Both the position numbers and the translations under genes were made by a program. 64,000 bases of DNA from Branchiostoma floridae (Eukaryota > Chordata > Leptocardii > Amphioxiformes > Branchiostomatidae). The notes beneath the pieces were generated by a model. It saw nothing but the letters and a program-made list of their open reading frames with translations. It did no database searches and was not told where the DNA came from. Shown piece by piece: positions 6,818-62,021 of the stretch (the stretch's first letter is position 1; each line of letters begins with the position of its first letter). The stretch lies in the NCBI RefSeq assembly GCF_000003815.2, contig NC_049990.1:17376532-17440531 (forward strand). Direction: 5' to 3'.

Positions 6818-6908
<91 letters not shown>

Positions 6909-9900
6909 TGCACAGTGGTAGCGATCTAAATTGATGAATAAAAATATGTATGAAAATGGCTTTAATTTGATATGGGTATTCAGCTTAATGCTGCTACAAA
7001 CTGACCCTGCTACCTGTAACATGGAGCATGAGAACAAATCATTATGATGATACAATAGATGGTACCTACATTTTGCATACAACGTTAAAAATTTGACGAG
7101 AATGAAAATATACCTTTGCAGAATTCCCCGTCACCAAGTGGCTCATACCCCGCTTCACATTCACATGAATACCCTCCAGCGTGGTTAAGGCATAGCTGGC
7201 TGCACGTATTGTTTGTGACACATTCATCCTTATCTGGGGCAATCAAAATACAAAATGGGTCGTCTGTGAGTTTTAGATACCTTTATGGTAAAACGTATGT
7301 AACCAACAGGCAGTAAAAAGCTTTTTATCCTTGCACACACTCAAATCCATATACTTTAAGACAAAGGCAATTACATAATTATTTGATTACTTAAAATATT
7401 TGACACTCAAATGTATGAATAAGTTTCGCTAATCTTACCAATGCATCTGCCACCAGTCACTGTTTTTTCGTACCCATCGTCACAAGTGCAGAAGTAGCTG
7501 CCTGGTGTGTTATGGCAGTGGTGGTCACATCCACCATTTATGCCGAAGAGCTCCGGCAAAGAGCATTCATCAATATCTAAACATCGTAAAGATTCCATCT
7601 TTAGGATATGTAAAATATACACTATAGAATAAGTGTACGAACAGTGTGATTGTGATTTTTCTAATCATACGCTTATATCTTAGTTTAGTCATATTAATAC
7701 TATATTGATAAGTAGTACAAATTAACAGAAATGACTCTTCATGATCAGTTATTTTCAAGACTTCCAAACAATTTGTTTAGCTGCTAAAATACCTTCAATT
7801 GTTGCTGGTAAATGACTGGATTTGTTAACGTTAAGCTTTATACTTGTTATCGTTATGATTTCAAGATGTAAATTCGCTACTGTCTGATAGTCATTTATAA
7901 CAAATATGTTGAGAAGGAAGTCTTACCCGTACAAGTAGCATTGTCTGTTGACAAAGTGTAGCCAGGATCACATGCACAATAGAAGCTGCCATCAGTGTTC
8001 CAGCAATGTTGAGCGCAGTTGTGATGGTTTATCTTGCATTCATCTATGTCTAAATGCAAAGGACTATGTAAGAGTATGAAATATGTGCACAGGCACACGC
8101 ACAGACACCCACTCACACAAACACACACAAATGACACATGAATGGTCCAAGTGCCGTGCAAGAGAAGCAACCGGCACACATCATCATCATCATCCCGGAC
8201 AATACAGTAATGATATATTTGTAAGTTGAATGCAGTAAAATAATAAGCGCACATAACAATGCTATACAGCAGAGATGCATAATCCTCAGACAATTACCTG
8301 CACAGACGGTCTCTTGCCCACTCCAGACTCCGTTGTGTGTACATGTATGGGTGTGGGGACCAAGGAGTTCATAGCCAGCAGCACAGGAGTAAGTTACATG
8401 TGATCCCACGGCGTATTCAGAATTCAAAGGTTGAATTGATGCATGTTGATGAATTAGAGGTGCTGAGCAGGTGACAGCTAAAACAATATAATGTTACTGT
8501 ATTTACATAACCTCAGACACTGTACCGCCAAATGATGCTAACTTTTTCCTATGGCATGTAAGTAATATTTCATTAATTACACAAATAATACACTCGTTGC
8601 CATAGCTTTTATCAGTTTATATTTTCAAACATAATTTTGAAGGTCTTCGCAAAAGTAATTATAATGTGCAACTAAATCATCATACAGTATTGTAATGATA
8701 CAGCATTGTGCAGCTTGACAATCTTTTCCCCACCAAAATCCACATGGAAACGTTAAAGAACATTGATTAAGCAATGTGCACCATACCTATCTCACAAAGA
8801 TGACCGATGAATCCATGTCGACAGCTGCATTGGTAGTCGCTGTCTCCGTTATGGCAAACTCCTCCATTCAGACATGGATCAGGGTTGCAGAAGTCAATGG
8901 GCGTCTCACAAGCAGTGCCTTGAAAGTCAGAGTTGCAAATAATATTCACTGTTAGTCAATTAAACAAAACCAAAAGTCATCAGCGTCCACCATTTGGTAC
9001 ATATTGTGCTTAATTTTGAGATAAAATACAGAGCATATATCGCTAGTTAACTTTTATCCGCGGGGTAATCTTTAGCTAGTTGGAGCTTAAATATGGCATT
9101 TAAGGATATCAAGTCGACAAATGGTGGTTTTGAATTGCACCATTTCCACAACAAAGCAGTTTAAAACCACGTCTAACTTGATAACCTTAAAATACCCTTT
9201 TCTAAACAACGGATATAGATTACCTGTGGAAAAGGATGAACTAGCGTTATCGATTACGTGTTATTTGCTGATAATCTGGAATTTGTGTAACCTTAACCAC
9301 CGACTGATATTTTATGCTAAATCAACCTGTATGTTGTAAAATGAAAACAAACGATTTCCCCTGCTGTCCTTAATTGTTTTGTATATATATCGCCAGAATA
9401 TTATTTCATGATACATGATATATTTTGAGGTATTACAAGGTCAAAATTCCATGGTTTCATAATTGCAATTCATCGGGAACCTTTCCTTACAATCCACACG
9501 TCCAGTTGCAGTGACATGCTGAACTTGAGGGACAAATCTGAAGTAAGCATATGTTAACTTTATATTACATAAGTATACCCTTCTAAATAAATAGCTGATA
9601 TATTTCAACATATTTACCTGTAAATCCAGGACTGCAAGCACAGGCTGTTGTATTTTGTTCGCTGTGGTAGACACATTTTCCATTCAGGCAAGGATTGGGG
9701 TGACAGCCGTGAATCATCGTGTCACACAGGTCACCGGTATAGCCAGATGGACAGTCACACGAGGAACCGTTGACTTTGTCGATGCAGGTACCTCCATTGT
9801 TACAGAAATCAACCGAGCAGTCTTCTAGACCTATTTGGTACAAAACCACCTTGATTTAACAGGGGATTGCACTCTGGAAATATAGTGTTCATCCTTAATG

Positions 9901-15900: not shown

Positions 15901-18900
15901 TATCAGGGGCGATGATGGTGTTGTCAAGGTTGATCTGCAGACTGCCCAGATGTGTTTCTCGTTCAACAGACAGTGCAATTTCTTCAATGGTGTTCTTGAT
16001 GTGATTGTAGTTTTGAAGGCCTAGGTCGTCATCCTAAGTGATTGGCGGATTCAAACATGGAATTTAGAAGGAAATTATCTTGTAGAAGTGAGAATAGAGG
16101 ATTGACAACTCTACTTCATATTGGTACATTCAAAAACTGCCATCTATATGTTTTAACTGGAATATGTGCAAGACACTATGTATCATAATTACTTTTTGCA
16201 AAGGCATAGCCTATTTATGACATTACTTTGATTTATGAGCTGAGTTTGCGTTAGGAATTCATAATATACAGCAATAAAAATATACTAAGGTGAATTTCTC
16301 ACTAATTTCTCATAATGTACATGCTCTAGTAATTGCCCTCACCAAGACAGTATATCAAATTTATTTTCAAAATGTCATCATTATCGTATTGGTAATGCCG
16401 AAGAGAATTGTGCATGAATTCAGCTATCTTGTTTTTCCCAACTTACATCAGTTTTGTTTAAGACTTGCACCGCCACATTGTAGCTAATCCTTGCCACTTG
16501 GTTGAACCCCCTACTCAGAAGGTCACGCTTATGCCTTGTTATTGTGTCATTTACTTCACCACAGTAGACCACAACATTTTCCACAAGGCAAGCATCGTTC
16601 CCATGAGCGTCCATACAAGCTCCCAGCATGCCGAATATTGAACCTTGTAGGATTTGCAGGAACTGCTCCTTGATTTGGAGTTGTGTAGTATTGTCGTGGC
16701 AGTTACCCACAAAATACTGTGATTCCAAACCTTTGTTCACTTCATTTGGATCCCGTCGCTCTGTATAACAATAAAACCCAATCATATATCATTGTCAACT
16801 TATATTATCCCATGTGCAATAAAGGACAATTAATAATTGAGAATGAGAAATAAGAAAATTGTGTGGCGTATGGTAACGTTAGCACAAGTTTCAACATACC
16901 CGAGCAGTCTGGCCAGGGAAGTGAGTAGCCAGGTGGGAATGTACTCCAGTCTCCTGATGCACCACAGACATAGAGTTGAGCTGGGCTTGTTGCGAACTCG
17001 TACAGATGGTTACAAAGTATGGTGCAGAATTGCCCATATAGCCATGTGTCACATGCTGTAGCTCCGTTTACAGGAGGTCGATAGTACTCACACCTATGGG
17101 CTGAATCAACAACATGAAATGAATTCATTGGAAGCCACAGTTCTGTTTGTTCTTATAGTTATAATTTATCTTTGGTTACGTTTCTCAATAAATGCATTTG
17201 GGTCCCTCTATTTCAGATTGACCAGTAGAGACGAGTTTTTCCCAAAATAGATTCAAACTAGAAAGGTAATATTTGCAAGCAAATACAGAATGTTACCTTC
17301 ACATGGTTTAGTCTAGCATTTCTACCTGGAAGGGTAAACTGATTAAGTTGCAGATGTTGACACAGGATAAGTCAAGACATGCAAGAAGGTACAAATAAAT
17401 TTTGATGATTTTTTTATCTGTAACGTTATCTTGAATAATGAACACAACGTCCAATATTGTTCCAAACAGGGTTTCTCATCATCATCTCATCACAGCCCCA
17501 TAGCTACAAGCCACAGGGGCAGTCTGTCTGTCCAAAAAGGTTATCCATTTCTGACGGTCGTCAACAGGGTTTACTCGACGACATTTAGCGTGTCGTCTGC
17601 GGGAGCGTCAAGGCCTATGAATTTTTTCGGCTTGGGGAGGTCCAGGGAGAAATTTCTTGGCTTGCGGAGAGAGAGCCATTGGAAAAAAAAAACTGGCTTC
17701 CTTCAACAATATGTATTCAAATGTTAAAAAAAAAATAAAGCTTTGAATCACTTGGGAAATTCATAGTCTCTGTCTCTGACTTGGTGCAGAACGCGAGCCG
17801 CGAAGTTCAGTTGATAACATAAGAATAAGTTTAATTTTGCGCTTTCCGTCATTGTTGACGAACAAACTCGGCGCGTAAGTATAGACAAATTTTGCAAAAA
17901 ATCTCTAAAAAATCAGCGGATGTTTGCGGACGGTGCTGACTTTGATGATAATTCCTAACGCGCGCCGGCGGCGAGAGAGAAGCGAGAAGCGACTGGTCGA
18001 ACCCAGTCGGTGCCGCGCCCCTCCCCCTAATGTTCTGGTCAGTCGCATCGTGCTAGCGCCGATGTTTTTGTTGTCATTTTCCCGGCCCCGATTAACTGTC
18101 AGTTGTTGCTACCATAGAAGTAAAAAAAATCGAACAATATGTGAAATTAAATAAGGTACTTTCAAGATAGTCTCCGGTAAGCCGATCGGACCTCATATGC
18201 TTGCGCTCTATACGGGGGCGGGGCCCTACATGAAACGTGACAAATAGGTGTGCTTTTGATTCTTTAATTGACTGCTTATAAAATATGGACCGAATCTACC
18301 GGTGTCATCATGTTGCACCAAATTTGGGCTGACCGTCTATGAAAATCAAGATGTCGAAGATATTTCCCAAAAGGTAGGCAGAGATTTGTTGATGTTGGCG
18401 GTGTTGTTTTTTTCGTAATGATTTTCTTAGTCGGACCATCGCACTGCATGAAAAGTCGTATTTACCGAAACGGTAAATGTGATGTAAAGCCTGGTAAAGG
18501 TTACATTTACCGGTAATTTACCGGTCATTTACCCGTCGGTAAATGTGCAGATTTACCCGGCATTTACCCTACATGGTAAGTCCGGTAATGGTTGCCTAAA
18601 TTTACCACATTTACCCGGTTCATGTAAAGGCGTGTTTACCGAGATTTACCATTCGCGGTATAAGTCACAGTTACTGTCATTTACCCATCTTTACCGTGCG
18701 TATATAGTTGCATTTACCGGGATTTACCACTCACGTTAAATATCATTTACCGGCCTTTACCGTGGATATATATAGATGCATTTACCGGGATTTACCACTC
18801 GCGTTATATCTCATACTTATTGGCATTTACCCATTTGTAACATCTACCTGGAAGTTCACAAACCACATTGTATGACACCCTAAATTACCCACATTTATTC

Positions 18901-21900
18901 ACAACTATGAATCAGAAGGACATGATTTTGATAAAATACAGCAAAATTTAATAGATAAACATAGCAACAGTTTAGTTACATTTTCTGAAGGGTACTAGTA
19001 TACACTGCAAATAAAATGTATAGTTTTATCAGCTACCACCTACTCTGTACATGTATTAACACACATAAACCACACAATATAAACATATTTGTCTTGGTAA
19101 ATTATACATACAAGAATAGTCTTTTATATACAGTAAATACAAGTAGTAGCATGCTCTGTGCAAAATCCTGACTTTGTTGTCAATGATAATATCATGTCAC
19201 CTATGAAAGTATGATTGTATAATGAAAGCTTGAGAAGTGCAAAGAAACAGTAGCATCACAAGGAAAACTGACCTGCAATGACATATAAGACTTGTAGTGC
19301 AACATTCAGTGTGGCCTGCAATGTTTCACCATTCAATAGGCAGCATCATGTAACTACTACATATCATCCAATCAATGATTTATCATTTAAAACTTAGAAA
19401 TATGTAGGTCAACATTTAGTGGGGCCCATGCTGTTTTACACTTTGTCAACATGATCAGTGTCATGTACTGAAAATGCATCTAAGTTCACAGTGAGTAGGA
19501 AGGTAATCGCTATGAGTTTGTGGTTAAGTAACAGTCACATATGTATCCGGGTCTTAGACAAGAAGGTACTAGTATGCGCGCATGCAGTTGTTCGCAGCAA
19601 TTTTTGCAACATTTCTTACTATCTGCTACGTGTTTATTCAAGTAATGCTTTATCATTATTTGATTTAAAAACAGATGATATCTGTATGTTACATGTACAT
19701 TAATGTCAATCTATACATTCTAAACACATGTCAAATGCAAAAATCAACTTGTAGCTGCATAAACATACTATACTTAACATACAATCGCATAATTCCACCA
19801 GGTGCCATTATACCACCACCTCATAAAACAATGTCATAGAGGCCTTCTGAAGATTGTCTTCAACACCTAAATATCGGAATTGTATTACATTTAGGATATA
19901 TAACATTCAGTGTTCAAGACAATTTTGGGAAGACCTGTATACTAACGCTTTTTTGAGGTGGCGGTATTATGGCATCTGGTGGAATTATGATAGTCAATGT
20001 TATTTGAACACCTACATGTATGGTGCAACAGATTGTATGCTATGGAACTGCTTGTGCGTGTAATAAAAAGAACTCCCTATTCCAATATACATCTGAGACC
20101 ACTGCTGTCATGGCCTCAGTGTAAGCTTCTCCCTCAGTGCCTACATGTTGGACTTCTTGGTGTGGGTTTGGAGTCCTTGTAATGAACCATTTCCTGTATA
20201 ACAAAACCACCAAAGTACCATTGAACATACATTTACTTTGAAATCTGCCCTAAGAAGTTTGAACAAACTAATAGAGGAAACGAAATAATATGCTCAAGAA
20301 ATATCATGTCACACTGGTAACTAGAACAGCCGTGCCTCGTCCCAACAGATGATCACACAACGGGTAACAACAAACAAGAGAATATGGAGATTCACGATGG
20401 CGGCCTGCCTCAGTATACACTGACTGTGCTACTGGTGATCCTGAATATACAGGACTGTAGTCTTACCTGTAGCAGTACTTCAGCAACAGAGCCTCTGACA
20501 GTTGCTTGCTTTGTTCCCAGCCATCCTTCTCACAACCTGTGCTGCACTTTTAAAGGAAGTCTCCACTGTTGGTGTACTGGAATTGAGATATGTGTATTAC
20601 AGTATAAACAATGACAAAGTTGCTTCTGGGCATCCTCAAATATATTCTACCTGAAATATTGACCAAACAACTGTAACTGAATACTAATATACACACCCGA
20701 AAGACGACATTTTAATGAATAATCATTTATCAATCGATTCAATGCTCATTCTAATTTCTAGCTCATCAATAATGAGTGTCACTTTGAAACTTTTGTTGGA
20801 CAAGTAAATACTTGTGGAATCTTGTCACTACTTGCTCCCCCTGCAGTAATGCAGTGAAATTTATTTCTTCAGCATTTGCTGTTGCATATAAACCTGACGT
20901 GAATGTCAGTTGACAATAATTTGTACTTACCGAAAGACCACGGTGACCTTCTAAAAATGGTGGAGGGGAGGGGGGCGATCTGTTCCGACAAAACTTGCTG
21001 CGGTCGGTAACTACCAATCCCCGCGCATTTTGAGCTTACACTGCATTCCCTTTGACTCTCAGCCCCTCCTGGGTTGATGAGCAGACAATGGTGGGGCCAT
21101 GTTTCACGAGAAGCGATATACGACGCCTCATTTATGCCGAACCAACAAGGAGTAACGGCTTTCCCCTCCATTTTCAAAATTCTGGAGGGTCACTTAGTGC
21201 GCATGAGTGTCCCTGGCCAATCAAACGGTCGCGATTGCGGACGTTGACCTGGGGGTCAGGGATTTGACCTGTTCTTCTTGCTATTTCAGAGGCTGATCTG
21301 ATCAGATTCTCATCATTCTGTTTTCACTTGTTTTCACCTTGTCCCTTTACTTCAATTGACTATCTTTCTAGGAGTACTAGTCTTTTGTCTTAGATCAAAA
21401 CATGTCAAACATGTGAACTTTGTTATAACCGTTATATATCATAGAATTTGTCTATGGATAAATACATATTCGAAGACGATATTCGGTGTCCTTATGTGGG
21501 GTTCTTATGTGGGGTTCTTATGTGGGGTTCTTATGTGGGGTTCTTATGTGGGGTTCTTATGTGGGGTCCTTATGTGGGGTCCTTATGTGGGGTCCTTATG
21601 TGGGGTCCTTATCTGGGGTTCTTATGTGGGGTCCTTATGTGGGGTTCTTATGTGGGGTCCTTATGTGGGGTTCTTATGTGGGGTCCTTATGTGGGGTTCT
21701 TATGTGGGGTTCTTATGTGGGGTCCTTATGTGCGGTTCTTATGTGGGGTCCTTATGTGGGGTCCTTATCTGGGGTTCTTATGTGGGGTCCTTATGTGGGG
21801 TCCTTATGTGGGGTTCTTATGTGGGGTCCTTATGTGGGGTTCTTATGTGGGGTCCTTATGTGGGGTTCTTATGTGGGGTCCTTATGTGGGGTTCTTATGT

Positions 21901-24900
21901 GGGGTCCTTATGTGGGGTTCTTATGTGGGGTTCTTATGTGGGGTCCTTATGTGGGGTCCTTATGTGGGGTCCTTATGTGGGGTTCTAATGTGAGGTTCTT
22001 ATGTGGGGTCCTTATCCAAGGTTAAGCTAATTCTTATCCACGCTGTTATTCAAGGTCACTGACAGACACTCTGGGCTAGGGGAGCTTATACAGGAGGTCA
22101 TGGGTACATAGCTAAGGGCTTAATATCTCAGAATGGGGAGGAGTCTTTTATAACTTATATGCTGTAGACTGATACTGATATTTACCTAATATTTACACAT
22201 ATTTACCGGGTAAATTTTAGGTATTTGTCGGTAAATGTTGGGTATCACATTTACCAGTAATTTACAAATCCATGGTAAGTTTGGTAAATCCGAGATTTCA
22301 TGCAGTGTCGCAAACAGTGCATTCAGTCCCTTTCCCCGTGAAAACATCAGCTAGATTGTGCTAGATACAGCCTCACATGAGACAAGAAGTACATACAGTC
22401 ACAATTTTATTGTCAAATATTATAGAATTGAATTCTCGTTTCTATCTACTTGAATTAGACTAACTTCTGAAGAGAGCAAAATTAAAACAAGCGTACCAAG
22501 TTACGGCACACTGCGTAGCACAAAATCGGAAGGTACAGTCACAGCTTGAAACGTCTCACAGAGTTTCCCGCTTGTACAACGCAGCGCAAAGGGTTCTCCT
22601 CAGCATGCTCAGTCACACTTTTACGTTTTCTATGAACCATATACCCAGTGTGAAATCGAATGTTACACATATCCTGTTTATGTCGCAGTAAGAGCGCAGC
22701 GCGATCGCCGTCTAGTGGAAATTTCGAAAGGGGGCCTTACCAACTACTGTAAATCGCACAAATTCACAGAAACAGCTGATTAGCGTAATCGCTAAAATTG
22801 CCACAAATCTATTATATTCGTTCACGTCCCGCAGTTGCCGGACACTCTCAGAGCAGAAATTGATATGGCTACCCCTGCACACTGCAAGTGATCTTCACAG
22901 TACGCAGCACATCTCCGCTATGCTTCCTGTCACAGTCAATCTGTGTAAATTCATTCATATTTTGAACGGCCCAATCATTTTTTCAGAGCCCGCAATTCAT
23001 ATTTCATAAATTTCTTTTATTTTTAGCAAACAATTTTGATTTACGTTTGATGTACGTAGTTTGTTTATGCCCTCATTATCAATACGTGCCGCAGTCGGTA
23101 CACTTCAAACCCGTCCGCCTGTCAATCATGCAAACTTCAAGGGGTTAGCTAGGTTTCTGCTACACTTAACTTTCGCGTTGGCTTATGCTGATTTGTGCCT
23201 GGGGATTTGTGCTGTGCCGGCCACTCCCACCGTGTATAAAGCTGTAAGTAGATTTATTGTAATTCACCCAGACTTCGTTTCCGTGCTCCACTTGCTTGCT
23301 GGGGACCAACGCAGCGCTGTGGTAACTTACATGATAAACAACAAGGTGAACGGAATGGCCGTGACCTAACATGGGGAGGGCGTTCCACGCTGCAGTTAAT
23401 CGTGTTTGTTCAGGTCAGTTTAATAGCGAAATAAACTCATCAAGTCCATCGTTTGTGTTTCACATACCTTTATGTCTCAGGCGTAAAACTTTGAGTTTGC
23501 ATGACGATCGTTATGCATGTTTTTTTATGTAACAGCCGGCAACACGCAGTGACCTTGCGTCTAACGTAGTCATGTGTTGTTTTTTTGCTCAAATGTTCTT
23601 GTTGACTCAAAAATCGGTTAACTACAACCGTGACACCAATCCGTGTTTCATTTAGACGACAGCTCTATGTATGAACTTGAAAAACGAACAGGTCTCGCTA
23701 CATTTTTATGATTAACGTTATATGCCAGTTACTTATCATGTTACTTTACGTTTGATGTACGTAGTTTGTTTATGCCCTCATTATCAATACGTGCCGCAGT
23801 CGGTACACTTCAAACCCGTCCGCCTGTCAATCATGCAAACTTCAAGGGGTTAGCTAGGTTTCTGCTACACTTAACTTTCGCGTTGGCTTATGCTGATTTG
23901 TGCCTGGGGATTTGTGCTGTGCCGGCCACTCCCACCGTGTATAAAGCTGTAAGTAGATTTATTGTAATTCACCCAGACTTCGTTTCCGTGCTCCACTTGC
24001 TTGCTGGGGACCAACGCAGCGCTGTGGTAACTTACTTACATGATAAACAACAAGGTGAACGGAATGGCCGTGACCTAACATGGGGAGGGCGTTCCACGCT
24101 GCAGTTAATCGTGTTTGTTCAGGTCAGTTTAATAGCGAAATAAACTCATCAAGTCCATCGTTTGTGTTTCACATACCTTTATGTCTCAGGCGTAAAACTT
24201 TGAGTTTGCATGACGATCGTTATGCATGTTTTTTTTATGTAACAGCCGGCAACACGCAGTGACCTTGCGTCTAACGTAGTCATGTGTTGTTTTTTTGCTC
24301 AAATGTTCTTGTTGACTCAAAAATCGGTTAACTACAACCGTGACACCAATCCGTGTTTCATTTAGACGACAGCTCTATGTATGAACTTGAAAAACGAACA
24401 GGTCTCGCTACATTTTTATGATTAACGTTATATGCCAGTTACTTATCATGTCAGGAGACATCCAAAGATATCACCACATACACGTAACGTTACCACAGTT
24501 GTCGGCCTGTCTGAGAAAATTGCAGTAGTGCTCTGAATGCGTTTGTTCACCAAATCATCGCGTGTGTACGCACGAGTGCTCACGTACTACACATCGTGTG
24601 TGTTCTCGATTCTACGTAACTCAAACACAACATAGAATCCGAACAATGTTTGGATGGCTCAGAGTTAAACTGACTTGTGAAGGTAGCAAAACCTTTAGCT
24701 TAAACAAAATCAAGAAAACTATCGAAACAAATGCTTAGATTTGACTCGATATAGACCTTAACCGAGACACATTATACTTTGGGGGCATTAAATTTCATTC
24801 TGCCTGCCCTCAATTTCATTCTACCTTCCTTGAAGTTGATATACTAGTATGCAAAAGGTGCCGATATTCGGCCAAATAAAGTCAAAGCTCTGTGAATTTC

Positions 24901-47671: not shown

Positions 47672-50557
47672 GCGACTAATCGGTAAACATGTTTACAACT
47701 GTTGACAGTTTAACCTGTAAGGTATGCAGTTTAAGTTCTGGAAGTTGCCAAGGTACCATAGATGGATATATGACCTAATTTTAAGAAATAAGTAGCTTTA
47801 GGGTTGTTTTTTTTAATCACAAGAAGAGTTCATTCAAGTTACCCATGTGTTTATATGTACACATCATTTTATTTGGTAATAGTTCCAACCTTCTCAACCA
47901 AAAGAAAACCTGTTTGTCTAACGAAAATAATAGTGGTCGTTATTTAATAAGGCGGATATTTCTTTACTTTATAGAGTATGTTTATATGTTTCTGACTTGT
48001 TCAATAAACGTTTAACGATACATTGTATTCACATCCAATTAACTGACAAATTCCACGAATTACTGTAATTCACCATAATGACATTGCAATTATGATGTAA
48101 ATTCATTTGCAAGACTTTTATCTTTTAATGTTCCGCTTTTTCTGAGCATTTGAGACGTTTGAAAAAGTCCTATAATAAAAACTTCAGGTGTTATAAAATC
48201 CATTAGATTGATTATCATTATTTGCTAAAACAAATGAAGATGTAATGATTTGCTGAAAGAAATTGTTTATTTACACAATTTGCATTCACGTTAAGCTATT
48301 TGCATAGCTAAAATCATACTGATACGTCGACTGTCTATTGTGTTTTACAAGTATCAACCAAACTATTCCTGTAGTTTAAAAAACAACCGCTTGGGGGCCG
48401 AAACCTAAACCAAGGAGGTTGTATATAGAACCCCCTTGCCTAAACCAATTACTTTCTGCTACAAGAGCTTCCTATGTCTTAAAGAATCAAGATCATAAAA
48501 TGTCCCAACTATGCGATATCAAGACCCCTAATATCTTCTGCTATACCGCGGAAAGCCACTTAGCGGCCAATAATCAAACCATTTAAATTGGATAGTTGGT
48601 ATACAACATTAAAATTCTACTGATACAAGATACATGCAACAATAATGCAATTTTTCTGAGTAAGGGGACATTGTATAAGCTTAGTAAGAATCCGTCCATC
48701 TTCATCTCTGGCTCATAATTGAAAAAAATCGTCTTGAAATGACTATTTTGGGCATTGTATGAATTTTAGGTTACTGACAACGAGTCGAGATACGGGGTCA
48801 TGAACCAGGAACATTTGATTAAGATAGCCATCTGTTTTCATGTGGATGACAAACAGAATTTATCGAATACCAAACATGTTATTCAATTTCCTAGACGAAA
48901 AACAAGTTTGCACAAGGCGGCAAAGGCGTCACCTAGCAAATGCCGTACAATGCGATGTGTTTTGTTAAGCCCTTACATAGTAAATCTTGTGCCACATGAT
49001 GTAATTTTTACATCGCCCTGCCCATGATGAAATAATGCTGATAAAAATTGCTGAGTCGTAATCCGAGGTCATAAAGCGGGAACATTTGCATAAGATTCCT
49101 ATTTTTCATTCGGGTAAGAATTTACGAGCTGCATGTCAATCAACTTCTACGACAAAAACAAGTTTGCGCAAGGTGACAAAGCCTTTGGCCGAAAAGTGTC
49201 CTGTGTTTTGTAGATATACTGACGTTACATCTCACGAGGTATTTGTTACAAGTAAAAAAAATATGTCAACTCTGTCATGCTTTTTTTTCATCTGGTAAAT
49301 ATATATATTTTTGAAATCACAGTCTGTAATTCAAAGGTATCAGTGTGAATTTGACGTCAATAGTAAATATTTCAATCGTTTGCATAACGATGCTTTTGAA
49401 ATCTTTCCATGATAAGAGTAAATCATATCTTTTAAGGACTTTCAAACAATAGAGCCATCAACAAGTCGTGTCTGTCTCAATTGAGGATTATCCTTATCCC
49501 CATAGATGGTAAATATGACATGTACAATTGCATGAATTGAGTGAGATCAATCTATGAGTAAACACTGACATTGCCATAAGCATGCATGTTGCATAAGGTG
49601 TCCGGAATTAGGAGAGCTTCAATCACAGTCGCCCTTCACGCAAAAATGACCAATTGCTTGCTTGAACAATTTCGATTAATTTACATCTGGAGGGGCTGAA
49701 ACGTTTTCGACAATTATATTAGATGAGGAACAGATAACAAAAGTAAACTTGGGTTCCATGAACACGTATCTTCGTCAACTAATCATGATTTTATTCAAGT
49801 TATTTGTCTTTTTGTAGTGATAGATAATCCCGATTATCAACAAAAAGAATGATTATGTACATTTTGTTCTGATGCCCTTTAACATGAAAAGTCAAGAATT
49901 CCCATACTCCTATTGTGGAAAGGCTTAATTAACTACTTCAAGTATAGACGGTCGTAATGATTAAGATTGACGCTGAAAACGTCAAATCCAAACTGAAACC
50001 CCTAACAGAACGAAACAGATATGTAATCACATAAAATGATGTAAATTATAAAGTAGAGATTCGTGCAATTAGAAAATAGATCATCCTCCATAGAACACAT
50101 TGGCTTCTTAAGGTATTGTGTCAGACCAAAAAAGATATGTTTGCTGTCTCGTCCTTAATTTATAACGTTTTTAATGGGGCAATCGTAACGACAGTATGGA
50201 AAATAGTAAGAAACCTTTTTTTATTATTCAAAAGTTTTCATTAACATTTACAATGTCTGTGTCACGACGCATATTGAAAAGATATATGCCTTTCTATGAC
50301 ATAAACATTACGCATTCTTGATCTCTTTTTAGCATTTAAGGACAAAGATATTCATTTCAACTGGTATCCATCCCCCTATATAGATAAATCAATACATCTC
50401 CAACATCTGACAACAATTCTTTTTTTGACGTGGTATTACTTGCATTATATTGGCTTTTTACATGAGATATAACGTCATATACTTCACGAGATTTTTCGAA
50501 TATACAGTAAGACAGTTCAAATCTTTTTGTTTCTATGTTGAAAAAATTAAAAAGCAG
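47672..50557. other. Upstream intergenic DNA with decayed MITE ends
   Basis: No exon recognised. Single ends of the GGTCATGAACC MITE family occur at 48784-48930 and 49052-49170; the rest is AT-rich unique sequence. Confidence 0.5.
48784..49170. repeat. Two partial copies of the foldback MITE family
   Basis: GGTCATGAACCAGGAACATT (48798) and GGTCATAAAGCGGGAACATT (49070) followed in each case by an ACAAGTTTGC.CAAGG block, the same order as in the full copies at 54.6, 55.3 and 57.8 kb. The opposite ends are missing. Confidence 0.7.
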
Positions 50558-51122
50558 ATGGTCCTACAAGAGTCATTTGACGTTGACGAATTTCTCTCAG
50601 GTCTGATTGTTGCTGTTGTTTTAATGAAAATCCATCTGCAAATTATGCACTTTGCTTTCACAGCACGAAAACGAATATTTAAGAATACTTTCCGAGATAC
50701 TTAAATGTAGCCTAAAGGTGGGAAAATATTTCCGCAGAGTTTACGGTATCGTAAAGACCACGGAAACCATGGTTTTACATTTCCGTAACCTTTCCGTATT
50801 CGTTAAGGCAGATTAAATACATGTAATATCTTTACATAACCTTTAAGCATCCTTATATGCGCCGTATATGAAACGGGTATTGCTTATGTACAGAAAACAT
50901 CTACAGGCTTTGAACCGACCATACGTTCACATACAATCAGTTAACCTTCGCCTTTTTTTTATTTTCGTGGTTCTCTAAGGTGGAAATTACCAATAGGAGA
51001 TGATATATTTTCATTGCCCTTCCGTTACAATTGATCTCATTTTACATACTCTTATCAGTATAGGTCTATGGAGACCTCCCCCTTTTATGTATAGGTATGG
51101 TAGCGTTTATTTCTAAGAAGAG

Positions 51123-52260
51123 GCATTGCTTTTACCAAATTAAGAGTATTTTCCGCTCAATATACCACATGCGCCGTTCAATAAAGCAGCGGCTTCAAAT
51201 GAATAGCTCCTGCTGTGTTTGCGTGTTTAGTTTAACCAAGAAAAGTAAATATCCTGTGTGAAAGCTACATATAACAGATACAATCTTTCCGATATCTTTC
51301 CGTTACATTTGAGCTGACTTTACATAAAAGGGGGGAGGTTTAAGCAAACCTCCCCCCTTTTATGTATAGGCGGAAAAAAGATGTCGGAAAGGTAGCGTTA
51401 ATCATTACTTGAAGAAGAGGCATTACTTTTACCAAATTAAGAGTATTTTCCGCTCAATATACCACATGCGTCGCTTACTAAAGCAGCGGCTTCAAATGAA
51501 TAGCTCCTGCTGTGTTTGCGTGTTAAGTTTAACAAAGAAAAGCAAATCTCGTCCTGTGTGAAAGCTACATATAAAAGATACAATCTTTCCGATGTCTTTC
51601 CGTTACATTTGAGCTGACTTTACATAAAAGGGGGGAGGTTTAAGCAAACCTCCCCCCTTTTATGTATAGGTGGAAAAAAGATGTCGGAAAGGTAGCGTTA
51701 ATTATTATTTGAAGAAGAGGCATTGCTTTTACCAAATTAAGAGTATTTTCCGCTCAATATACCACATGCGCCGTTCACTAAAGCAGCGGCTTCAAATGAA
51801 TAGTGTTTGCGTGTTAAGTTTAACCAAGAAAAGTAAATCTCCTTTGTGAAAGCTACATATAACAGATACAATCTTTCCGATGTCTTTCCGTTACATTTGA
51901 GCTGACTTTACATAAAAGGGGGGAGGTTTAAGCAAACCTCCCCCCTTTTATGTATAGGTGGAAAAAAGATCTAGATGTCGGAAAGGTAGCGTTAATCATT
52001 ATTTGAAGAAGAGGCATTATTTTCCGCTCAATATACCACATGCGCCCTCACTAACGCAGCAGCTTCGCCTGAATAGCCCCTGCTGTGTTAACGTGTTGAG
52101 TTTAACCAAGATAAGCAACATTTGCTCCTGGTTAAAACTTACATATAGCAGATACAATTTTTGGAATGTATAGGTGCAAACGGAAAGGTAGCGTTAATTA
52201 TTATTCTTAAAAGAGGCATTGCTTTTACCAAATTACGAGTATTTTCCACTCAATATACCA
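51123..52260. repeat. About 300-bp tandem units inside element 2
   Basis: Units beginning near GCATTGCTTTTACCAAATTA recur at 51123, 51420, 51720 and (diverged) 52010 and 52215. Three carry the same 46-base hairpin at 51321-51366, 51621-51666 and 51909-51954: arms TACATAAAAGGGGGGAGGTT and perfect complement around a 6-base loop. Confidence 0.9.
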
Positions 52261-53989
52261 CATGCGCCTCTCACTAAAGTAGCGACTTCGCCTGAATAAC
52301 TCATTCTGTGTTAGCGTGTTTGACGAAACCAGGAAAATCAAAATATCCTCATGGAACATATGGTATCTTTCCAATGTCTTTACGTTACCATTGAGCTCAC
52401 TTTACACAAAAAGATGCTATGTACAGGTGCAAGAAAGATGTCGGAAAGGTAGCGTTTACTTTTTCCAGTAGTATCGTATGTTACCGATATCGTTCCGTTA
52501 CCTTTGCCTTTGAGCTTACTTTTCAGAAAACTCTCTGAACTTTCTTTACAGAGGTGGAGATTGATAGTTACAGAAAAAGATGTTGGAGAGGTAGCGTTGA
52601 AAGCAAGGAAATTAAATATTTAACCTCCTTGTTGAAAGGAAACAACAGTCGCCGGGAGGACTGGGTACATGCCCCCGAAGATTGGTGGTCATAATTACGG
52701 CATGTTCCCGTTCAGGGCAAGGAGGTTGAAAGAGGGCCTCCTTGTTCAGGGTAAGAGGACTAGTACTGGGCGGCCTGTGCAGTATGTCGCTCGCGGGTGG
52801 CTGTGCCTTGCAGCTTGGCATCCCGACGACATAGCGTCCTCACTACGCGGTAACGTATCATGGGAATATAGCGGGTTTGCTGTTTATATAATTGTACAAA
52901 AAAACTTTCTTATCATCTGGAAGAACATTTATTATCTACAAGCAATAATCACGTTCTCCCAGAAAGGCTGGTATTTTCTAGTGTGGTAACAGTTGTGTTT
53001 AGCTTAACATTGGCTAAACAGCGTACAAAGGGGATGGTGTTTTTCAAATTCAAATTTATTCGCCGTCAACTATGAATAACGAACAACGCGGCATTGAATT
53101 TCTAATTAGCAGCTCCCAGAAGAGGCCAGTCATGTGATAGGGCGTTATCCAATGACAGACAAAGGTGGGTTTTTTAAACCTAACGAATATACCATAATTT
53201 ATAGAAGAAACCAGTTTGCAGGGCGTCTGTTTCGGGACAAGTCAAGAAGGAGCTTGGATCCGTTTCAACACACGGATTATCGGCGTGGCTTTGCCGCAAA
53301 TGGATTCGAACGGAACTACAGGACGGAACGGACATAACCATAGGACACTCAAGGCTTGCCAGAAACGGAGTATGTTGGAGAGTCTTCAAAGGGGCACAAC
53401 TCAGGGTGAATTCAAGACTGTGTCATCTTGACCAGCATAAGCTGGCGGAGATATGGAGAGCACGGCCTGTTCATCACAAAACAGTACCCGTCTTCGGGAA
53501 TCTCAGCGGATTTTTCCTAATGTGATGGCCAGATGGAACTATGCTGCTTGAAATGATGTCTTTCCAGGCGTATCGCCCGACACTGGACTCCAAATTGTGG
53601 ACTTAAATGTAGCGGAGATTCGTGCATGGATATTGTACACCGATTGTTCCCTCGGTCGACCAATCCAAGTCCACAATTGGACTCACAAGATAGTTTAGAC
53701 GGCAAAGCCATGGATACCGGTGTAGGTATGATTCACACCAAATAAGACACGCATACCCGATGCAAAAGTTCCAATTTAAGCCACACAAAACACATAAAGC
53801 CTACCTAAAGATGCGGAAAGGTTTAAACTTACGCCGCCTTTACTAAAAATAAATGACAACTATAGTCCAAGGAAAGATCACGGAAAGCGTTCGGATAAGT
53901 ACGTTTCTGCACTTCTTCGCGTGCCTTTCAGGGTGTGTAAACGACACATAAACGTGGGGAAATCGTGACGGAAATCGACTGTAAATGTG

Positions 53990-54380
53990 GTCAAAAGATC
54001 ACGGAAAGGTCTTAAGAAACGCGTGCTTTCCGCCCGTATAGGTTACGAAAAACTGTCATTAACGACGCCTTTAAGCGTCTAATAGTTGCGGAAAGGCACG
54101 TGAAGGAGTGCCGAAACGTACATATAAGTGCATTAAAGGGAATCTTTACGTTCACGGATAGATGTCGTTAAGTTGCGGAAAGGGTGCAGAAAGGTCTTAA
54201 TACACGCATACTTTCCTCCCGTATAGGTTACGAAAAACTGTCATTAACGACGCCTTTAAGCGTCTAATAGTTGCGGAAAGGCACGTGAGGAGTGCATATA
54301 AGTACATATAAGTGCCAACGTAAAGGTAACATTAAAGGGAATCTTTACGTTCGCGGATAGATGTCGTTAAGTTGCGGAAA
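53990..54380. repeat. 184-bp tandem units near the right end of element 2
   Basis: Two copies of a block containing GGTTACGAAAAACTGTCATT and AGTTGCGGAAAGGCACGTG, near 54044 and 54228, each rich in GGAAAGG. They form the right subterminal region. Confidence 0.85.
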
Positions 54381-54618
54381 GGGTGCAGAAACGTCGCGTT
54401 TACGTTGAGTTTAAGCTTGCTTAAATACCAGATTTCGTGCTGTGTTTCTTAGTCATCATTTTACCAATAGAAGTATTAACTAAAGAAATTAGGACTGATT
54501 TTATGATATGGGTACCGGGTGGGATAAACTGCGAGTGAACGATAGTTAAATAAATTGCCTTTTTCTAAGGATGGATATTCATTGCTGGCAGAGTATTACT
54601 AAGTTATTAGATCTTTTT

Positions 54619-54872
54619 TCAAGGCCGAGACGTACTACGAGGTCATGAACCAGGAACATTTGTATAAGATTGGCATCTGTTTTTCATCAGGTAACAAAAG
54701 AATGCACCCACGCAGAGCATGTTATTCAACGCCTACGGCGAAAAGAAGTTTGTACTAGGCGATAAAGGCTTCACAAAACACGTGCTGTCAGCAATCAAGC
54801 TTTGTGCTTGTCAAAGCCTTATCTTATGCAAATGTTCCCGGTTCATGACCCGTTAGCGTGACTCGGCCTCAA
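54619..54872. mobile_element. Foldback MITE copy (254 bp)
   Basis: The ends TCAAGGCCGAGACG and CTCGGCCTCAA are inverted, followed inside by GGTCATGAACCAGGAACATT on the left and its inverse on the right (about 50-bp terminal inverted repeats). Its orientation is opposite to the copy at 57802, as expected from the surrounding inverted repeat. Confidence 0.78.
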
Positions 54873-55312
54873 TAAGAGCTCGGCCTCAAATAGACGTTCC
54901 AACGAACAAACAAGAAAACAGGTAACATAATGATGTATAAGGCAGCAAAATGATAAATGAAAATATTACGCGTAAATAAGGTCTGTATTTTCCATCATGT
55001 TGATCCAGATAATGCTGATCCAGATATCGTCTTATAGATCGATTGTTATCCTACACTGAAGTTGAAGGGCGAAGACGGTCTTCATGCCACCAAAAGAAGC
55101 ATCATTTAGCTATACTGCTGAGTATAAACTGACTTTATGATTTGGAACCTGAATTGTGTAAGGCAAGGATTGAGTGTAAAAGAGTATTTGAAAAATAACG
55201 TTTATACATTTAATAGAAATAGATATCTTGCCTGCAACATTTAATTGAACTAAGACATTTAAGCTGATTTAGTCTTAGCCAGGTACAAGTTTTAAACTTC
55301 CATCATAGATGC

Positions 55313-55650
55313 ACAGTCGTACCGCGAGGTCATGAACCGGGAACATTTGCATAAGATCCCAGTCTCGTTTGATTCTGGCTATTTAACGTCTACATGTTAT
55401 CTAACGTCTACGCCGAAAACAAGTTTACAAAAGGCGATAAAGGCTTCAAAGAACTTGTGTTGTCAGCAATCCAGCTGTGCGTCTTGTGATTGTCAGAGCC
55501 TTTATCGCCTTCTGCAAACTTGTTTTCGTCGTATACATTAAATGACGCGTATTGTATCTAGGAATGAGGTCATGTATATGTATCTATTCTTTACCCGAAT
55601 ATTGACAGATGGCAATCTTATGCAAATGTTCCCGGTTCATGAACTCTTAT
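55313..55650. mobile_element. Foldback MITE copy (about 340 bp)
   Basis: GGTCATGAACCGGGAACATT at the left and its inverse at the right, plus an inner inverted pair (GAAAACAAGTTT...AAACTTGTTTTC and GCGATAAAGGC...GCCTTTATCGC), so the whole copy can fold into a long hairpin. Confidence 0.78.
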
Positions 55651-56300: not shown

Positions 56301-57801
56301 ATATTTAGTGTGAATTCCACATAACTGAGTGGGTATTTTTTGCCTTTTGTTCTAAAATTTCGATAACAATATAACTAAAGTTAGTAACTGTTTAGAACGA
56401 TTTAACATTTGTTGTCTGTCATTATATTTTCTACTGTATTACTACATATCAGAAACATTTCTAATGCCAAATAATTATTTGTTTATCATTTCACAAAAAG
56501 TTCCAATGCATATATAGATTCATTATTTGTTGTAGCATGTTGGAACGTTGAAAAATCGTTTTTAACTGGGTAAGTAGGCTGGAAAGAGGGCAATCCGAAC
56601 ATCCCTACCAAATATAGGAATTTATGTTTGTGCCAGCCCCCACAAAAACAGCCACCAGTGTCCAGAATAAAAGTAACTTAGCACCTTCGTTCATGAGGGT
56701 AATATCCCGAACCCACCAATTGGAAAATGACGCACATTTATATAAGTTCAATCATGTTCCAACTTTCATTTTTAACCCTCAAACCACCGTATGGGGTTTA
56801 AAATGACCCCAGGCATAAATCCACATGTGCCAGTGTAACATTTCTGGTCGAAAATGAAATTCCTCCCACCCTCATACGTTTTTGCCTAGATTGGCTCAAT
56901 ATTGATTAAGTTATCCTAGACAGTTTATGCATGGTCCAGTGGGGTCAAAACTGAGTCCAGCAAAATGTGCATTTTCTAAAACAAACTTTTGAGACCCAAA
57001 ATACACTACTTATCGTATGACCACCAATCTTTTAGACAAAAATGTACAACTTGTGTCATTGTCATTTAAATGACGACATTATGATGCCAACTAGCTAATA
57101 TGACCGCAATATTCGCTATTGGCCGATGACATCATCGAATTGAAGTGAATTATGAATATTAAATCATTAAATTTTTGTTGAATTTCACAAGATGTAATAA
57201 ACCAGTCTTGTTTGCCAAGAAGACCGTAAAACTTTAATGTTTAAACCTAAATAAAAGCAAGTTTTGTAAAGAATATACCTGTCCAAATTCCGTTGCTATG
57301 GCAACATAAAAAATGATGATCTTACTTTATTCAAGTAAAACATTTGCTGTTATAAGTTTCTTTAAAGCCATTAAGGAGCTAAGGACATAAAAGTTGGTGC
57401 AGGCATCAAAAGCCTCCTCCCCGGTCTGAATAGATTAGTGCAAAATTTGTTTCTTATGCTCTTTTCCATAAATTATGATAATGTCCTGGAGTTATTCACA
57501 ACTTATCATGTCAAACTCTCCCGTATAAATTAACGAAATTTACATATATAAAAATTACAATAAGAGTCACAAAAATGTATTTGTACAAAACGTTATGGGG
57601 TCAGTTTAGACCCCGTACGGTAAGATTAGTCTTAAAGTAGCTACGGTGGTTTTAAGCGTTAATTGTTTGAACAATTTAGAAATATTTTGGCTGAAATATT
57701 ATTTTACTTACGATATTTCAAACTCATTGCAAATATCATTTTAGAGTCATATCAGTTACTCTACAACTCCCTGTCCTAAAAAATTGTTACTTTTTCACTT
57801 G

Positions 57802-58142
57802 TTGAGGCCGAGTCACACTAAGAGGTCATGAACCGGGAACATTTGCATAAGATTGCTATCTGTTGTCCTTCGGGGAATTAAAAAAAACTTTATTAAAGGC
57901 ATACGACGAAAACAAGTTTGCACAAGGCGATAAAGTCTTCAACGATCACAAGACGCACAGCTGGATTGCTGACAACACGTGTTTTGTGAAGCCTTTATCG
58001 CCTAGTACAAACTTGTTTTCGCCTTAGATGTCGAATAACATGTTATGCAGTTTGTGCATTCCTTTGTTACCTGATGTAAAAACAGATGCCAATCTTATGC
58101 AAATGTTCCTGGTTCATGACCTCGTAGTGCGTCTCGCCTTGA
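57802..58142. mobile_element. Foldback MITE copy (341 bp)
   Basis: Ends TTGAGGCCGAG and CTCGCCTTGA; terminal inverted repeats of about 50 bases with GGTCATGAACCGGGAACATT. It forms the inner end of the right arm of the long inverted repeat. Confidence 0.78.
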
Positions 58143-59044
58143 TTAAAGATGAAATAACTTAGTAATACTCTGTCAGCAATGAGAAAAGTAAACCTTTAAA
58201 ACTGCAAGTTTAGTTCGTTATTTCGTATAAATTATTGTTCACTCGCAGTTTATTCTACCCATATCAGAAAATCGGTCCTGATTTCTTTGGTTAATACTAC
58301 GTTTGGTGATATAATGACAAAGAAAGCACAGTGTATAATTTGTAGATGGATTTCAATTAAAACAACAGCAACAATCGGTCTGAACGAAATCCGTCACCGT
58401 AATATGGCTCTTGAAGGACCATCAAATGCTGGAGACAAGAAATAAAAAAAATCTAAGCAAACTTAGTTCTTCTTCCAAAACTATGTATTGAAAACTACCT
58501 TTTAACCATTCAGAGTTGTATAATCTTTTAGATGCAGCACGCATTACTAAACTAAAAATTAGTGCCTACTCCTTACAAATCAAAAAGGGTAGACACTGTA
58601 TTTAACACAACAACGAGAGACGGTGTCCAAATGCCATGATGATATTGAAAATGATTCCACTTCATAATGGATAGTCCAACTTATGACAGAGAGAGACAGT
58701 CTATTAAATGCAAGTCTGAGACACATGTCGCCACATACCAAGACAGCTACAAATTTTCAATACGTTACTATCATATCATGTTGATATATCTACCTATGTC
58801 GGTCAATTCATATACAACTCCTTTAAAAAACGAGACAATATTATACTTTTCTGACATACTGTCGTTGACATAATTCTACAGAAAATGCACGCATAACGCT
58901 ATCTTGATTGTTTGTACTATATACAATACCATTTATAAAGTAGATCAGTACTATTACCATTCAAAAATTAGATTAGTTCTTTAATATTGTCAGATATTAA
59001 GAATACATGTGTTTAAACTGTTTTGTATGTGTAAGTTGCCATAT

Positions 59045-59255: not shown

Positions 59256-60772
59256 TTTCTATACTATATTATTGTGTTTCTCTTATTGTCTTTGTCATAA
59301 TTTGTTTGGGAGGCAACTCGAAGGTGTGTCTTTCTCCTGCTTTTGTCTCCCACCCATTTTCGGTTCTGTGTATGGTGAATCTCGAATAAATAAATAAATA
59401 AATAAACAACAATTCTGAACAAATCTGAACATTCTTACTGGATATCCGAAAAAAATCCAGTATATTATGTAACGTTAGAGTCCATTCCAAGTCAATGTGC
59501 GGATGTTTGTTGCCATTGTTTAGTTAAAGTTTTGTAATTATATGTCTAGGACATTTGATACTTCAGAAATATTTTAAACACTGTTTCAACTTTATAAATA
59601 TTTCCCTGGTCCTGTAAAACTTTGGAAATATTCATGGTGTGGAATTGGATACTTGTAATGGTTTCGAAATAATGATAACAGCATTCTTCCATTATTTACC
59701 ATTTTCTACCATTTTTTTTTAAATGGTTCAGTGGGCTGGGAAGATAGCAATTCACACATTCTTGCAAAGTATGGTTGGGTGCCATGCAACAATGGCCCAC
59801 CACAAAGGATCCACCAGTGCCCAGCTGTGAAATCTAAAAATTTACAGAGGCCACAATAGGGCTTACTTTTATGGGGGCAATAAACTACCTTTACCATTTG
59901 GCAAAGTTTACAAATATTTGTAAATAGTTGTAAATGTAAAGGATTAAACAGAGGTTTCACAATTATTCTAAATAAAGATATTTTGTACAGTTACTTTCAA
60001 AATGTTTCTAAAGCATTCAAACAGATGAGTATTTTCTTAGTCAATTTTTTAAAAAGAATTTAATTATTGTGGCTTAGATATTCTTTTATTCCAAATAATT
60101 CAGACTTATTACAAGTATCAGCTAAAAACTCTCGTGGTGACTTGGAATGAACTCTATATGTAAAAGTCAATATAAGGCAAGTAATACAACGTCAAAAACT
60201 TGCATTGTCTTCAGATGTTTGCGATATTTTGTCTTATTTACCTTGAGGGATGGGTACCAGTTGAAACGGATATCTCTGGCTTTGATTTCATTAAAAGAGA
60301 AAAAAGGTTGCTTATCCAGAGGTGTCTTGATCAAACGTCTTTGCTTTTTTATGAAAATATGCAACTTAACACAAATGGTAACCAGGTCATGATAGATACA
60401 GATAAACAGCTTATGCGGTTATTATAGAAGTAGATATAGAATAAATACAACATTTTTTTGTAAACAGGAGACAATTGTGAGGCAAACCCTTGACTCCTTT
60501 TCATTTTAACAATTAAGTCCATTAGTAATTTTTTTTCTTCAAATCCGGATGAATTTCAATAATGATAGATAATAAAGATACCAGATATAATGTTAAGTGT
60601 TTACATTGCGTTGGAAAAGAATGAATGCATTAAGGAAATGAGAACATGCTCCAGTACCTAAATAGCAATTTACACTGCAAAAGCATCCAGAACAATAAAA
60701 AATACCCTTAGTCACAATATCTACTCCGACGCAAAAATTAAAATTTTTGCCGCAAAAGAGTGAATCCAGTAT

Positions 60773-62021
60773 ATGATGGCCTGCCTTTATAGTGGGGAAA
60801 GGCACGAGAGACTTCATCAATGCAGAGATCTAATATTCAAAGGGATTCCCGAATGTCAAAATGAAACGACCAGAACATCTATAGCCACAGTCCTAAGCCC
60901 GATATTGGGATCAGAAGTTAATATACTTAGAGCCTCTCGTCAGGGAAATATATCAGGAGCCTCGCCTATCTATACTCGTCCCATTCTTGTTCGATTCAAG
61001 AAATACAATGACAAACTGAACGTGATATACCAGTCAGACACTTTGTTTAGGAACCAGAATATAACAATAGAACAACCAAAAATCTCATATGAAATACCTG
61101 ACTTAGAATACGTACTCTTAAACTTCTGCAAAATTTCACTTCATGTACCGAAAAGCTCTGTCAATGCTGCCGTAAGAGGTGAATTAGGAGTATTTCCTCT
61201 ATTCGTTGACAGTCAAACACATCTGATTGAATACTGGCTAAGATTGCATACTCTACCAAATGACAGGATTGTTAAAAAGGCTTACGACACTTCAGTGGAA
61301 AAAGAACATGACCGGGCTACTCACGTTCAGGACATTTTATGCCGACATGGGTTCCAAAATGTTTGGCTTAACCCCGCTGTTAATGTCAAACATTTTTGGA
61401 ACATATTTAAAGAGCGTCTAAAATACACGTTTCTTTCTGGCTGGAGGGAACAGCTCAAAAGCACCAACAAACTAAAAACCTATTCGAAATTAAAAAAACA
61501 CTTTGGTATGGAAGAATATCTCAAATCAATTCATAATAGACCATTTAGATACAGCATTACAAAACTGAGAATAAGTGCACATTGTTTAGAAATCGAAAAA
61601 GGTCGTCACCGTAACACACCAGCCACTCAGAGACTGTGTCCTACATGTCATGAAAATATAGAAGATGAATTCCACTTTGTTATGAAATGTTCTACCTACA
61701 GTAAAGAGAGAGAAACATTGTTTAAGAATATCAGAACCAAAACACACATCTCTCTTACTGGTGCAGAAAACGATATTTTTAATATATTGCTCTCATGTTC
61801 AACTCATATATCCGTCTACGTAGGCCAGTTTCTTTATAATGTATTCCAAATGCGAGACCAGATCACCTATACATAACTGTACTGTTATCGATAATGTTTT
61901 GTTATTGTTTTGTATGTAGCCTCTTAGTACTATTGTCTGTATAGCTATTAGTTGTTATTAGTTGCCATACATTGTACCCTGTGCGATTGTTGAGCAATAA
62001 ACTCATTCATTCATTCATTCA
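60773..62021 (+). mobile_element. Internally deleted LINE 3 (ORF1 RNA-binding part fused to ORF2 C-terminus)
   Basis: One 367-codon frame (60773-61876). Residues about 10-105 resemble a LINE ORF1 RNA-binding domain (CRDLIFKGIPECQNETTRTS). From about residue 115 it becomes the C-terminal part of ORF2: LLNFCKISLHVPKSSVNAAV, RGELGVFPL and LIEYWLRL, then a terminal finger LCPTCHENIEDEFHFVMKC. The middle (rest of ORF1, endonuclease, reverse transcriptase) is missing but the reading frame is kept across the joint. An (ATTC)n tail at 62004-62020 is the 3' end. It also seems 5'-truncated. Confidence 0.8.

Follow-up and report, generated by a model that had tools for sequence, protein, structure and literature searches.

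A probable non-autonomous CACTA-type element family with a hairpin satellite array in the lancelet Branchiostoma floridae

The element and its unoccupied counterpart

The window considered here is a stretch of 64,000 nucleotides from the lancelet Branchiostoma floridae (assembly GCF_000003815.2, contig NC_049990.1, positions 17,376,532 to 17,440,531 of the forward strand), and the subject of this analysis is a transposable element of 3,786 bp that occupies positions 50659-54444 (plus strand) of that window. The element sequence runs from CACAGCACGAAA to TTTCGTGCTGTG, with 12-bp terminal inverted repeats of CACAGCACGAAA at 50659-50670 (plus strand) and 54433-54444 (minus strand). A TTT abuts both outer sides (50656-50658 and 54445-54447, strand not applicable), forming a 3-bp target duplication. 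The extent of the element is defined by the inverted ends, the duplication, an empty site and 15 further paired copies elsewhere in the genome.

The empty site lies in an inverted paralogous arm within the same window. In a self-comparison of the window, the left flank (50557-50659) matched 58423-58322 with 84% identity and the right flank (54440-54811) matched 58331-57948 with 81% identity, and a lone TTT is present at the unoccupied site (58323-58325, minus strand; the complement reads TTT). Flanks fused with one TTT align gap-free across the arm junction with a score of 252, compared with a lower score of 245 when both TTT are retained. The element inserted at a TTT site and duplicated the TTT. 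The coordinates, inverted ends and flanking TTT proposed in a first-pass annotation of this DNA were therefore correct, as was the uninterrupted site with one TTT that it had placed in the inverted arm near 58323. Direct and inverted copies of one repeat, approximately 67-93% alike and partly palindromic (48791-49185, 54622-54876, 55315-55649 and 57798-58136), surround the element and occur in the empty-site arm.

Copies of the family in the genome

The host assembly (513 Mb, 431 contigs) was searched for further members of the family, termed family 1. The 12-bp tip CACAGCACGAAA occurs 329 times (155 + 174), compared with 24 occurrences (14 + 10) of the reversed control, and the exact 26-bp right end occurs 63 times, compared with 0 for its reversed control, on every contig from C1 to C19 and on smaller contigs. 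Family 1 has at least 63 right-end copies in the assembly. There are 222 candidate places in the genome for the left 202 bp and 80 for the right 80 bp, and the 40 scored in each case were 99-100% and 100% identical, respectively. Of the 40 scored left ends, 33 have a counterpart among the 63 right ends, with a spacing of 2,804 to 10,380 bp, and the lengths of 23 of these 33 paired copies fall into four clusters approximately 300 bp apart (3,143; 3,430-3,501; 3,731-3,821; and 4,027-4,062 bp).

Paired copies for comparison were drawn from the first 100 of the 329 tips (contigs C1-C6), which yielded 15 convergent pairs spaced 3-8 kb apart; five single tips were also taken. An exact 3-bp direct repeat flanks 13 of the 15 paired copies, or 14 of 16 when the window copy is included, compared with 3-bp agreement in 9 of 240 cross-paired flanks used as a control. 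Agreement over 4 bp was found in 0 of 16 copies, and the duplications have no fixed target sequence. The first-pass annotation had recommended gathering copies and testing their duplications, and two of the outcomes that it named as damaging, different ends and missing duplications, did not turn up among the copies. A chance inverted repeat is ruled out by the tip counts relative to the reversed control and by the duplications of the copies.

Several candidates for additional or longer members were rejected. One family-1 copy of 7.4 kb (L014, C3:31240519-31248955) holds reverse-transcriptase-like frames, read from the translations by eye; its extra length includes these frames, which apparently represent a nested insertion of a retrotransposon lacking long terminal repeats, and it was not accepted as an autonomous copy. 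A putative long copy of 10 kb (C10:22985840-22995834) was discarded, as 4 kb of its middle is without family-1 sequence and 1,967 of 4,000 letters are N. The tip followed by C or G, considered as an extra family, was found 17 times versus 15 in the control and is thus attributable to chance.

Conserved ends, interior and coding capacity

The ends of family 1 are far better conserved than the interior. Relative to the window copy, all 15 other copies show 98.8-100% identity over the right 80 bp (54365-54444, minus strand) and 95-99% identity over the left 100 bp. Over the central 1.1 kb the identity is 80-97% in 14 of these copies, and in L014 this region is broken up into pieces of 68% and 87% identity. 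Copies that are 20% apart inside, yet have near-identical ends, are as expected if the ends are recognised. Part of the centre (52660-53698, plus strand) is alignable with the centre of a related family, family 2 (score 358 versus a maximum of 239 in 20 shuffles), and has no Pfam match. On the right, a tandem duplication of approximately 200 bp (54004-54395, plus strand; 87% over 208 columns) carries CGGAAA and TTTAAGC motifs. The hexamer TTTCCG/CGGAAA occurs 30 times in the element versus 14 times in the other 60 kb of the window, with TTTCCG mainly at the left and CGGAAA mainly at the right, and TTTAAGC/GCTTAAA occurs nine times, compared with a mean of 1.1 and a maximum of 5 among 200 Markov sequences.

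The absence of a recognisable transposase, as claimed at first pass, was upheld: the sole stop-to-stop frames of at least 100 amino acids (aa) inside the element (117 and 106 aa) matched no Pfam family. A Transposase_21 gene of its own, as an autonomous CACTA element would carry, was not found, as none of the matches to PF02992 (Transposase_21, the CACTA transposase domain) in the assembly falls in the window. The inner frames were also rejected as a conserved protein, because they have no Pfam match and L014 and L017 give a different reading of the frame.

Transposase-bearing elements and family 2

PF02992 has 28 matches in the assembly and 0 in 14 control genomes. A tip of sequence CACTGCATGAAA occurs 351 times in the assembly versus 59 in the control, and one such tip sits 6.3 kb from an open frame of 884 aa on contig C5. 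Among the 28 matches, one lineage was followed to its ends, and comprises three long Transposase_21 elements: C5:21347730-21360314 (12,585 bp, flanked by AAG/AAG), C13:1218606-1230286 (11,681 bp, AAT/AAT) and C19:6368613-6380151 (11,539 bp, TAT/TAT), with the C19 element read at its ends and transposase region only. The 3-bp duplications are exact in 3 of 3, the 884-aa frame is open in all three, and the C5 protein matches PF02992 with an E value of 1.7e-18. The 3.5-kb transposase regions are 99.5-99.7% identical to one another; the remaining sequence of C5 and C13 aligns in pieces of 93-99% identity, so that the age of the elements is uncertain. On the opposite strand, the C5 element also contains further open frames (115 and 130 aa), which may represent a second, TNPA-like gene. 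The region of another candidate partner, L030, was rejected, since neither side has a matching tip within 5 kb.

The left 58 bp of the window element (50659-50716, plus strand) are identical to the C5 left end at 45 of 58 positions (E 5e-7 in a pairwise comparison of these two elements only), and without the first 12 bp the match still scores 40, compared with at most 26 in 200 shuffles. In the C5 element, TTTAAGC/GCTTAAA is found 15 times in the outer 900 bp of the two sides and 0 times in the 10.8-kb interior. The left 58 bp and TTTAAGC are thus common to family 1 and to elements of 11.5-12.6 kb with an open Transposase_21 frame. Between the interiors of the C5 element and the window element there was no match above chance.

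Family 2 is represented by two members (L025, positions 5001-9016, and L027, positions 5001-9110), which are 70-75% identical to family 1 over approximately 110 bp at both ends and are flanked by the duplications AGG/AGG and TAA/TAA. Their arrays, judged from alignment offsets and sequence, have a period of approximately 115 bp on the left and 141 bp on the right, and the two copies contain TTTAAGC/GCTTAAA 13 and 14 times. No palindrome with arms of at least 16 bp was found in either member, and two of the family-2 units fold weakly (z -2.2 and -2.0; 5 and 9 of 200 shuffles as good).

The hairpin satellite array

Towards the left end of the element lies a 300-bp tandem array of 3.1 copies (51107-52023, plus strand), and the lengths of paired family-1 copies step by approximately 300 bp. 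The array contains three near-perfect palindromes of 52-56 bp (51316-51371, 51618-51669 and 51906-51957, strand not applicable), each with arms of 24-26 bp, a loop of AAGC and TTTAAGC at the loop (51339, 51639 and 51927), in agreement with the interior of hairpin satellites described at first pass. As DNA, 51284-51404 folds at -37 kcal/mol compared with -10.8 +/- 2.4 for shuffles (z = -11.1; 0 of 200 shuffles as good). A fixed-length scan recovered 42 hairpins, 26 of them distinct, in 14 of 16 copies, and a looser search added a shortened hairpin in L015, leaving L013 as the only copy of the 16 without one. L013 nevertheless has perfect ends and an exact AGG/AGG duplication, suggesting that the hairpin is not strictly required for insertion, unless it was lost afterwards.

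The stem core is near-invariant, pairs 13-17 being G-C in 22 to 26 of the 26 distinct hairpins. Covariation across the 24 stem pairs is minimal: only one of the 26 distinct hairpins has a change on both sides, at pair 18-35, while at pair 3-50 both A-T and T-A occur and T-T is commonest. A reading as a known RNA family was rejected, since the 23 weak Rfam matches (E up to 1) included none at gathering score and were mostly microRNA-like and a consequence of the palindrome.

The explanation that is slightly favoured for the array is that it is a passenger satellite, grown by unequal exchange or slippage, with no role in transposition. The perfect ends and duplication of the hairpin-free L013, the length steps of approximately 300 bp and the scarcity of covariation all fit such an origin, as does family 2, which has no long palindrome and whose short G/C inverted repeat folds weakly. 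A pure passenger would be less expected to retain the near-invariant stem core, or to place at every loop the TTTAAGC motif that is confined to the ends of the transposase-bearing element, and family 2 has a different array that again repeats TTTAAGC. The hairpin units may be amplified subterminal repeats, although this is less sure. In an extended and rather unlikely version of this idea, non-autonomous CACTA families would have turned a putative subterminal transposase-binding motif into a satellite, with the palindrome of each family-1 unit presenting TTTAAGC at its apex and the element, through its many binding sites, outcompeting the autonomous partner; family 2 would have kept the motif, while period and sequence diverged (approximately 300 versus 115 bp) and the long palindrome is absent.

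Classification and mode of movement

The element has inverted tips of CACTA type (12-13 bp, CAC..GTG), its 3-bp duplication shows no fixed target sequence, and its subterminal motifs are repeated and inverted between the ends (TTTCCG mostly on the left side and CGGAAA mostly on the right, together with TTTAAGC). It also has end homology to a Transposase_21-encoding element, clear at the left end and weak at the right, and these features together support the ‘CACTA-like’ label first given to it. The autonomous partner sought on the recommendation of the first-pass annotation has a candidate in the C5/C13/C19 elements, which share the left 58 bp and TTTAAGC, though the right ends match weakly. 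The window element is probably a non-autonomous member of a CACTA (En/Spm) lineage, whose ends would be used in trans by the C5-type lineage or a close relative. The transposase of either, possibly assisted by a TNPA-like protein, would recognise the tip and subterminal repeats, excise the element and then join it at a 3-nucleotide staggered cut. This model is carried over by analogy from maize, in which TNPA binds subterminal repeats, and in which defective copies that have retained the cis sequences are acted on in trans by both TNPA and TNPD (PMC2613891, excerpt).

Several observations weigh against this assignment. The right ends of the window and C5 elements align over 35 bp, and without the tip 1 of 200 shuffles scored as high. 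Apart from the tip, the ends of family 2, the sister of family 1, are not significantly similar to those of the C5 element (7 to 29 of 200 shuffles scored as well), and the C5 region, with 9 occurrences in 15.8 kb, shows no enrichment of TTTCCG/CGGAAA, the commonest motif of the window element. The family-1 tip is CACAG and the C5 tips are CACTG, and two of the 16 family-1 copies are without a duplication, namely L021 (TTT/TTC) and L023 (GAA/TAC). Moreover, mobilisation in trans is inferred from sequence. Given the weak right end, the lack of TTTCCG enrichment and the single lineage followed, the C5 lineage is best described as a relative with which the window element has the left end and one motif in common, and there may be a better partner.

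It is accordingly a genuine possibility, although not the reading preferred here, that the element is a non-autonomous CACTA whose true partner is another, unseen CACTA lineage, with the C5, C13 and C19 elements as cousins only. The difference in tips, the weak right-end match and the paucity of TTTCCG would be accounted for in this way, and among the 28 Transposase_21 matches only three copies, all from a single lineage, were followed to their ends, with no matching tip within 5 kb of L030. Against an unseen partner stand the 58-bp left-end homology and the common TTTAAGC motif, together with the finding that, by position, 0 of the 33 paired family-1 copies enclose any of the 28 matches.

Placement of the CACTA-type element in a different superfamily with CAC tips or 3-bp duplications (Chapaev, Chapaev3 or Harbinger) is very improbable. 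ProtoRAG and Transib elements have a 5-bp target duplication and were rejected, as flank agreement in family 1 ends at 3 bp, with 4-bp agreement in 0 of 16 copies. Chapaev has CAC/GTG ends and duplications of 3 to 4 bp, and Chapaev3 has TWA duplications (PMC4079192, excerpt). The same 0 of 16 excludes a Chapaev type with 4-bp duplications, only one of the 14 exact family-1 duplications is TWA (TAT), which excludes Chapaev3 under that rule, and the long element that matches at the left end codes for Transposase_21. An element like SmTRC1 of the TRC group would need CCC tips and a 2-bp duplication (PMC1636069, excerpt), and was dismissed on the CAC tips and 3-bp duplication found here.

That the ‘empty’ arm reflects clean loss of the element rather than the pre-insertion state is highly implausible: the arms differ by approximately 16-19%, which would permit either order in time, but the arm has exactly one TTT and continuous flanks, 13 of the 15 other paired copies have duplications of their own, and a loss would have to be precise and take one TTT with it.

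Comparison with known elements

CACTA elements have been studied best in plants. The window element resembles the defective, deletion-derived CACTA/En-Spm elements for which soybean Tgmt* is a full-length example, in having short inverted tips, a 3-bp duplication and subterminal direct and inverted repeats that are arranged asymmetrically and can fold into stem-loops (PMC2613891, excerpt). Such defective elements are moved in trans by proteins of full-length elements (same excerpt), and the same may hold for the window element, judging from its sequence. In contrast to Tgmt* as presented there, the window element is in an animal, has a CACAG tip instead of CACTA, and has its stem-loops inside a 300-bp satellite unit; unlike the defective elements, its interior is without homology to the full-length relative found here.

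A satellite array within a CACTA element is also a feature of the CACTA-like Jozin of Chenopodium, in which the array is near the 3' end of Transposase_21 elements (PMC8978399, excerpt), whereas the window element is non-coding and has its array, with hairpins, close to the left end. Subterminal stem-loops and internal satellites therefore already have precedents in plant CACTA elements (PMC2613891 and PMC8978399, excerpts), so that the suggestion at first pass of an undescribed layout is weak. No published description of family 1 was found in a literature search that reached few subscription journals, and the family may already stand in Repbase or Dfam.

In animals, SmTRC1 and other TRC elements are similar to the C5-type relatives in their hosts, their Transposase_21 protein and a tandem-repeat region, but have tips that start CCC and 2-bp duplications (PMC1636069, excerpt), compared with CAC and 3 bp in the present elements. 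The ends of the present elements thus seem nearer to those of plant CACTA elements. In radish, the tip of such an element reads CACTACAAGAAAA (PMC7210773, excerpt), and the family-1 sequence CACAGCACGAAAA agrees with it at 10 of 13 positions by eye, with bases 4 and 5 differing from CACTA. Chapaev and Chapaev3, which fall in the same CMC group, share CAC/GTG ends and 3- to 4-bp duplications with the window family (PMC4079192, excerpt), although the TWA targets of Chapaev3 are not the rule in the latter, and its related transposase is of the Transposase_21 type. The C5, C13 and C19 elements are like the window family in the left 58 bp, TTTAAGC and the 3-bp duplication; these differ in their length of 11.5-12.6 kb, open Transposase_21 frame, CACTG tips and few TTTCCG motifs.

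Together, the defined non-autonomous family, with its empty-site control in the same window, and the three long relatives in which the transposase frame is open make up a two-part system. In an animal CACTA lineage that combines plant-like tips with 3-bp duplications, the end requirements of the transposase could be tested directly, and so could the idea that subterminal satellites raise mobility.

Other elements and features of the window

A second CACTA-type element of 3,866 bp is present in the window at 18442-22307, with CACTGCATGAAA tips and TCG on both sides. Its left end is rich in TTTACC/TTTACCG, and a 13-bp minisatellite of 40.6 copies lies at 21488-22015. In a third family, with CACTGCACGAAA tips (L061-L064, 2.5-2.8 kb), the duplication is exact in all four copies, which were picked for paired tips. 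TTTAAGC/GCTTAAA was found 0 times in two family-3 copies and 0 times in the element at 18442-22307, and the ends of neither showed clear likeness to family 1 beyond the tip (2 to 134 of 200 shuffles as good).

Elsewhere in the window, an open frame of 370 aa (60764-61876) has no Pfam match; part of it resembles, by eye, a frame in L014 and L026, and it is probably part of a retrotransposon. The Pfam search also matched VWA, Sushi and HYR domains. Finally, a direct tandem duplication of approximately 700 bp is found at 23040-24451, the two units of which (23040-23741 and 23745-24451) are 99.3% identical.

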